64,000 nucleotides of DNA, from assembly GCA_020859985.1 (NCBI GenBank), contig JAJBVD010000042.1:1-64000 (forward strand). Reading direction: 5' to 3'. The notes beneath the pieces were generated by a model. The model did no database searches and was not told the origin of the DNA. It worked only from the letters and a program-made list of their open reading frames with translations. Of this stretch, positions 29,857 to 29,968 are shown piece by piece. Numbering within the stretch: position 1 is the first letter of the stretch; each line of letters starts with the position of its first letter. This stretch comes from Clostridiales bacterium (lineage in GTDB: Bacteria > Bacillota > Clostridia > Lachnospirales > Lachnospiraceae). The position numbers and the translations under genes are program-made.

Positions 29857-29871
29857 ACCACCGTTTCCAGA

Positions 29872-29922
29872 TCATTTCACATATGTCAGATCCTGTTTTT
29901 CTTTTACAATATCATCATTCAT
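29872..29922 (-). pseudogene. Remnant of HipA-like kinase gene (MNDDIVKEKQDLTYVK*)
   Basis: Start, RBS and first codons match the intact kinase at 41038; the remaining 727 bp are missing at an ATAT microhomology. Confidence 0.85.
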
Positions 29923-29939
29923 AAAAATCCTCCTAAAAA

Positions 29940-29968
29940 AGTATACCAAGGCACTTGTCGTATGTCAA
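29940..29968 (-). promoter_or_regulatory. Promoter of deleted-kinase/DUF2442 copy
   Basis: Minus strand TTGACA-N17-TATACT; -35 overlaps imperfect palindrome CTTGACATACGACAAG. Confidence 0.7.

Follow-up and report, generated by a model that had tools for sequence, protein, structure and literature searches.

Deletion of the kinase gene from one copy of a putative HipBST-like two-gene toxin-antitoxin module in a Lachnospiraceae genome

How does one copy of a two-gene module come to lose its kinase and keep the partner gene, and what does the remaining gene represent? The window analysed here (64,000 nucleotides of contig JAJBVD010000042.1) is from a gut-type bacterium of the Lachnospiraceae with two copies of a pair formed by a kinase gene and an antidote-like gene, and the kinase is gone from one copy. 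Both copies lie on the minus strand. At 40 kb the pair is intact: a 274-aa kinase gene with a predicted CtkA/HipT-like fold (40214 to 41038) overlaps by 32 bp the start of a 273-aa partner gene (39424 to 40245), identified as an ORF and by domain and structure analysis. At 29 kb the promoter, operator, RBS and 14 kinase codons are retained, and the partner ORF (29035 to 29856, 273 aa) is open, as the first-pass annotation of this DNA had stated; ORF and domain searches assign it an N-domain, a probable DUF2442 and HTH_17. The span 29857 to 29968 holds the leader ORF and operator of this locus. Elsewhere in the window, a repeat family of about 73 bp has three copies that are 79-86% identical (46733-46804, 52858-52930 and 53738-53811), and segments 7281-8428 and 16843-17987, inside two very large minus-strand ORFs, share 74% identity over 1.15 kb.

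The leader at 29 kb begins with a kinase-like start, MNDDIVKEKQDLTY, and then passes out of frame into VK and a stop codon, ahead of the intact 273-aa partner ORF. The kinase had been described as reduced to a short peptide, and the 16-aa remnant ORF (29872 to 29922, minus strand) reads exactly so, MNDDIVKEKQDLTYVK and a stop, with codons 1-14 being those of the kinase. The kinase and partner starts are 793 bp apart at 40 kb and 66 bp apart at 29 kb; the difference of 727 bp is the length of the deletion proposed at first pass between two ATAT tetranucleotides, and ATAT is present at both breakpoints. The junction (29878 to 29887, minus strand) reads CTGACATAT/GTGAAATGATC, that is, CTGACATAT/TTGTCC joined to AAAATAT/GGGAAATGATC. 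Written as a whole, CTGACATATGTGAAATGATC is accounted for by CTGACATAT(TTGTCC) plus (AAA)ATATGGGAAATGATC, with ATAT shared by the two sides and one added substitution, G to T, after ATAT. A related genome, G301 (Lachnospiraceae MAG U.6_1), has identical bases at both breakpoints. The comparison supports loss of the 29-kb kinase by a deletion at a short (4-bp) microhomology.

G301 also bears on the direction of change. It carries one intact pair, immediately downstream of HPr-EI. The window orphan likewise follows EI, though three additional plus-strand genes intervene, and its 3' flank shows modest similarity to that of G301; the 3' flank of the 40-kb copy, which adjoins fruK, does not. Gene order relative to EI and the modest flank similarity, on which orthology of the 29-kb site with G301 rests, thus make 29 kb the likely ancestral site and the 40-kb pair likely an additional copy. 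A 91% match to G301 running past the 29-kb partner was rejected as a sign of flank orthology, as it consists mostly of the partner itself, with moderate similarity outside. The first-pass annotation had suggested comparing strains for an intact kinase at the 29-kb site. The intact pair that G301 carries at the syntenic position shows that the deletion is the derived state, a kinase loss and not a gain. That a kinase was instead inserted into a partner-only ancestor is barely credible: we found nothing in its favour, the G301 pair stands against it, and it is refuted by the kinase codons with which the orphan locus starts and the kinase-derived sequence in which it ends, upstream of the partner start.

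The surroundings of the site vary. In another genome (G257) the entire 29-42 kb block is missing, and a homologue of the gene at 42122-45139 lies within about 1 kb after galK. The three adjacent plus-strand genes at 30299-35790, none of which lies between EI and the pair in G301, encode a DUF6273 protein, a glycine-rich protein and a protein with Sel1 repeats, and the first and third are paralogues with 66% DNA identity over 573 bp. Upstream of galK (28914-28975) there are short tandem CTCAAATC-type repeats, and similar ones come after the pair in G301.

The partner copies at 29 kb (W29) and 40 kb (W40) differ at 9 of 822 nt and at 6 aa, which bears out the earlier estimate of about six differences in 273 aa. 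All nine differences fall within 96 nt of the start or 60 nt of the end of the gene, and the middle 666 bp (29095 to 29760, minus strand) is 100% identical; the kinase start and promoter region is about 85% identical between the loci. When G301 is used as an outgroup, 40 of 47 differences fall inside the 666-bp core (Fisher p = 1.5e-6 for the placement of W29/W40 differences against the outgroup distribution), so the core is not unusually constrained. An identical core flanked by diverged ends is most simply read as the result of gene conversion between the two copies, and the intact pair appears to have been the template from which the orphan partner was re-copied. The loci were called duplicates at first pass, but the mosaic speaks against a simple recent duplication.

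The window genome is assembled in 89 contigs, and the phase of the flanks across the identical core therefore depends on the assembler; the deletion junction and the two ORFs are unaffected by this. It is very unlikely that short-read assembly across a repeat produced the two loci or the identical core. A 666-bp exact repeat could indeed be mis-phased in such an assembly, which makes the joining of 3' flank to 5' side assembler-dependent, but the junction lies in sequence unique to the 29-kb copy, neither partner ORF is broken whichever way the core is phased, and the same kind of loss is seen at other junctions in independent genomes, including a complete one (L097, AP018533).

The kinase is, judged by its modelled fold and its motifs, a small HipA-superfamily kinase of CtkA/HipT-like fold with intact catalytic motifs. 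Its best solved-structure match by both profile (3.2e-7) and fold (Foldseek TM 0.65, 2.2e-9) is CtkA of Helicobacter pylori, although the structural alignment shows only about 14% identity; fold matches to HipT (TM 0.54, 4.6e-6) and HipA (TM 0.55, 7.9e-5) were also obtained. N153-R154-D155-R156-H157, N160, F178-D179-x-G181, G25/T26/G28 and K45 are invariant in 42/42 homologues, and the motif classes present are the catalytic loop Asp/Asn, a DFG-like motif, a Gly-rich loop and the lysine. At 18.1 bits the kinase falls below the curated Pfam HipA_C cut-off of 30.5, and its classification therefore follows from fold and motifs instead of membership of that Pfam family. It also matches PDC-M03A of PADLOC (7.5e-11). 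Our literature search found no paper joining CtkA, HipA and an antitoxin.

The partner, for which the structure model is confident (pLDDT 92.7), had been described as a DUF2442/HTH protein. Both domains are found in the C-terminal half of the family, DUF2442 in 31 and HTH_17 in 40 of the 51 aligned members (E <= 0.01 for DUF2442, best 4.3e-9, a threshold that the window partner itself misses). The closest solved structure to this half, NE0471 (PDB 2auw), matches residues ~133-250, the DUF2442 and HTH part, and unlike the partner has no N-domain. The description was incomplete, however, in that the N-terminal ~113 aa form an additional part, the only one found in every intact module. All invariant partner columns lie in this N-domain, partly by construction, as four aligned rows are without the C-terminal part; R70/P73/R76-Q77-N78 form an invariant patch. 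Ten loci (L027, L073-L079, L234 and L235) have a partner of ~113 aa, consisting of the N-domain without DUF2442-HTH, and nine of the ten have a near full-length kinase. These sequences mark the N-domain as the part that the kinase is never found without.

What might the N-domain be? PDC-M03B-like N-domains were recognised in 44/51 members by weak matches, and a search with an HMM of the N-domain retrieves HipS-like proteins scoring above the Couple_hipA cut-off (E 1.4e-4) and matching PDC-M03B strongly. When the N-domain profile was aligned directly to that of HipA N-subdomain 1 (hhalign), the match was not significant (probability 1.5%), and a fold search with the whole partner gave no HipS among the matches listed, so the link to HipS is transitive. 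A relationship between the partner N-domain and HipS is nonetheless probable.

The C-terminal part of the partner, in turn, is tied to a putative operator. A TTGAC-N4-[GA][TA]CAA palindrome is found at most 110 bp upstream of the kinase start in 62/73 related loci, often on the -35 box, against a background density of about 0.02 per 100 bp across the fetched loci. It occurs in 62/66 loci with an HTH-bearing partner and in 0/7 of the tested loci with an HTH-less partner (Fisher 2e-7), and orphans that still have a promoter keep it or a close variant. In the window, the intact pair has the operator-like sequence CTTGACATATGACAAG (41071 to 41086, minus strand; from sequence and motif search), and the orphan locus an imperfect palindrome read from the sequence, CTTGACATACGACAAG (29954 to 29969, minus strand), that overlaps the -35 TTGACA. 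The tie between operator and HTH implies autorepression, and the partner is very probably an autorepressor.

These features place the module, on sequence grounds, among putative HipBST-like toxin-antitoxin systems, a known kind of which the two-gene form with a fused partner is a variant. As in HipBST of E. coli O127:H6 and Legionella, a small HipA-superfamily kinase without N-subdomain 1 is accompanied by a probably HipS-like domain in trans and an HTH regulator (PMC10627512, PMC8262856). The antitoxin of HipBST is HipS, which places a Trp beside the Gly-rich loop of the kinase (PMC10627512). Kinase toxicity through phosphorylation of TrpS is a further mark of HipBST. HipBST has three genes (hipB, hipS and hipT), whereas here there are two, with the putative HipS-like part and the HTH part fused and DUF2442 between them; the kinase gene comes first, the HTH is of the HTH_17/excisionase and not the HipB type, and no HipS Trp65 motif can be made out from sequence. 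With two genes and one multi-domain partner, the module is therefore not filed as HipBST but only as working like it. In hipJS and hipIN a putative antitoxin gene with a HipS-like domain lies downstream of the kinase (Gerdes et al. 2021, PMC8262856), the same order as the kinase and putative antitoxin here, and the 113-aa partner loci resemble the hipJS layout. HipN, however, has HIRAN instead of DUF2442-HTH, and DUF2442 is not mentioned in the main text of PMC8262856. The PADLOC candidate defence system PDC-M03 is similar in that the kinase matches PDC-M03A significantly and the partner N-domain matches PDC-M03B weakly, in the N-terminal part only; the matches are of partial length, and the PDC-M03B models (232-250 positions) have a C-terminal half unmatched by the partner.

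Is the loss at 29 kb an isolated event? Kinase loss with an intact partner ORF was found at six distinct junctions: the window (W29), L072/L113, L094, L096/L097/L101, L228 and L218. The tree of loci has seven kinase-loss changes, at least six of them forced; the tree gives L096 a change of its own, but as its junction is that of L097/L101 it was merged with them. Kinase searches in the genus, family and order turned up no intact close kinase that lacked a partner N-domain next to it. Four losses came from symmetric searches and two from partner-only searches, and with strictly symmetric sampling the asymmetry is only 4-5 versus 0, so that the evidence for a kinase-first order is indicative but not compelling. 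At other kinase-less loci the partner is broken as well (L104, G153, G659 and L002), consistent with the kinase going first and the partner later, and with retention that is not permanent. L002, on a viral contig, has a deletion across both genes (2900-3560) that fuses the kinase N-terminus to the partner C-terminus. A further kinase loss is probable in G282, which has only kinase residues 166-272 beside an intact partner of the 113-aa type; it was left uncounted with its 78% complete assembly. Apart from the window genome, none of the kinase-less genomes examined has a second close kinase. Phage records gave no match to either protein and plasmid records one match to the partner at 33% identity, and three viral contigs carry relatives or remnants of the module.

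Recurrent kinase-first loss is what a toxic kinase and a protective partner would lead one to expect, and the usual order of decay would be kinase before partner because losing the antitoxin first would be harmful. It is unlikely that the pair is instead a phage-defence or signalling module, with a partner that is mainly a DNA-binding regulator kept for regulation. The match to the candidate defence system PDC-M03 and the operators retained at orphans would suit such a role, but what all intact modules share is the N-domain and not the HTH, as the ten N-domain-only loci show, which fits kinase binding, and the kinase-first losses fit a toxic kinase. A toxin-antitoxin system that works in abortive infection would fit either reading.

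The first-pass annotation regarded toxin loss with antitoxin retention as the expected route of decay. The order of loss it described is recurrent, with at least six independent cases, and the genus, family and order searches found none of the reverse kind, an intact close kinase that had lost its partner. Selective retention of the orphan is not demonstrated, since unconverted segments look relaxed. Orphan antitoxins are known from Klebsiella, where those of HipA toxins are among the common orphans (PMC7192599). There too the antitoxin gene is present without its toxin; here, by comparison, remnant start codons and an exact junction are visible, as is a putative conversion tract shared with an intact pair elsewhere in the genome.

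Is the orphan maintained? Selective maintenance is possible, and a tentative case can be made for the orphan as an anti-addiction or cross-protecting antitoxin that would guard against the 40-kb kinase and incoming modules and be kept matched to live kinases by gene conversion, an idea that opposes only the passive-decay part of our preferred explanation. It would account for the 666-bp core identical to a live pair in the same genome, and the 11 checked conserved N-domain residues are kept in every orphan. The Oscillibacter orphans (L096, L097 and L101; 3001-5690), which lie beside the 576-aa large serine recombinase of an integrative element, add to this case: the partner is a divergence hotspot, mosaic and about 11% divergent in blocks, in an element backbone that is near-identical (about 0.4% divergent), so partner alleles have been imported. 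However, the non-imported N-domain of L097/L101 has 6 nonsynonymous to 0 synonymous changes, and the W29/W40 partner ends have 6 to 3, versus 9:36 for the paired outgroup comparison (p = 0.0095), which fits relaxed constraint. Intact loci (L095/L098) are mosaic too, making recombination not specific to orphans, and several orphans (L104, G153 and G659) have decayed. The low omega of the Oscillibacter orphans (0.06-0.19) was rejected as a sign of purifying selection after the loss, as their divergence is mostly imported by recombination and the non-imported segments look relaxed. The broader proposal that toxin-less orphan antitoxins are kept matched to circulating live toxins by gene conversion or by allele import from intact modules, as updatable anti-addiction protection and not fossils, we consider doubtful.

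Altogether, the kinase deletion is genuine and derived, it affects one of two copies of a two-gene module of HipBST-like type, and comparison among relatives supports decay by toxin loss. Our best explanation, to which we give a probability of about 0.72, is a two-gene type II toxin-antitoxin module of the HipA superfamily, in which the small CtkA/HipT-like Ser/Thr kinase is the putative toxin, the partner N-domain would neutralise it and the HTH part would act as repressor. A 727-bp deletion at a 4-bp microhomology removed the kinase from the probably ancestral 29-kb locus, which now encodes the partner alone; the 40-kb pair stayed intact, and gene conversion with it probably homogenised the orphan core.

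In this module one partner protein appears to merge the kinase-blocking role of HipS and the repressor role of HipB, giving a compact Hip-type module in Lachnospiraceae and Oscillospiraceae. The related loci amount to a natural series of deletions, from which the first part of the module to be lost can be read. With an orphan beside an intact relative, and a putative conversion tract between them, the choice between passive remnant and maintained protection becomes directly testable.
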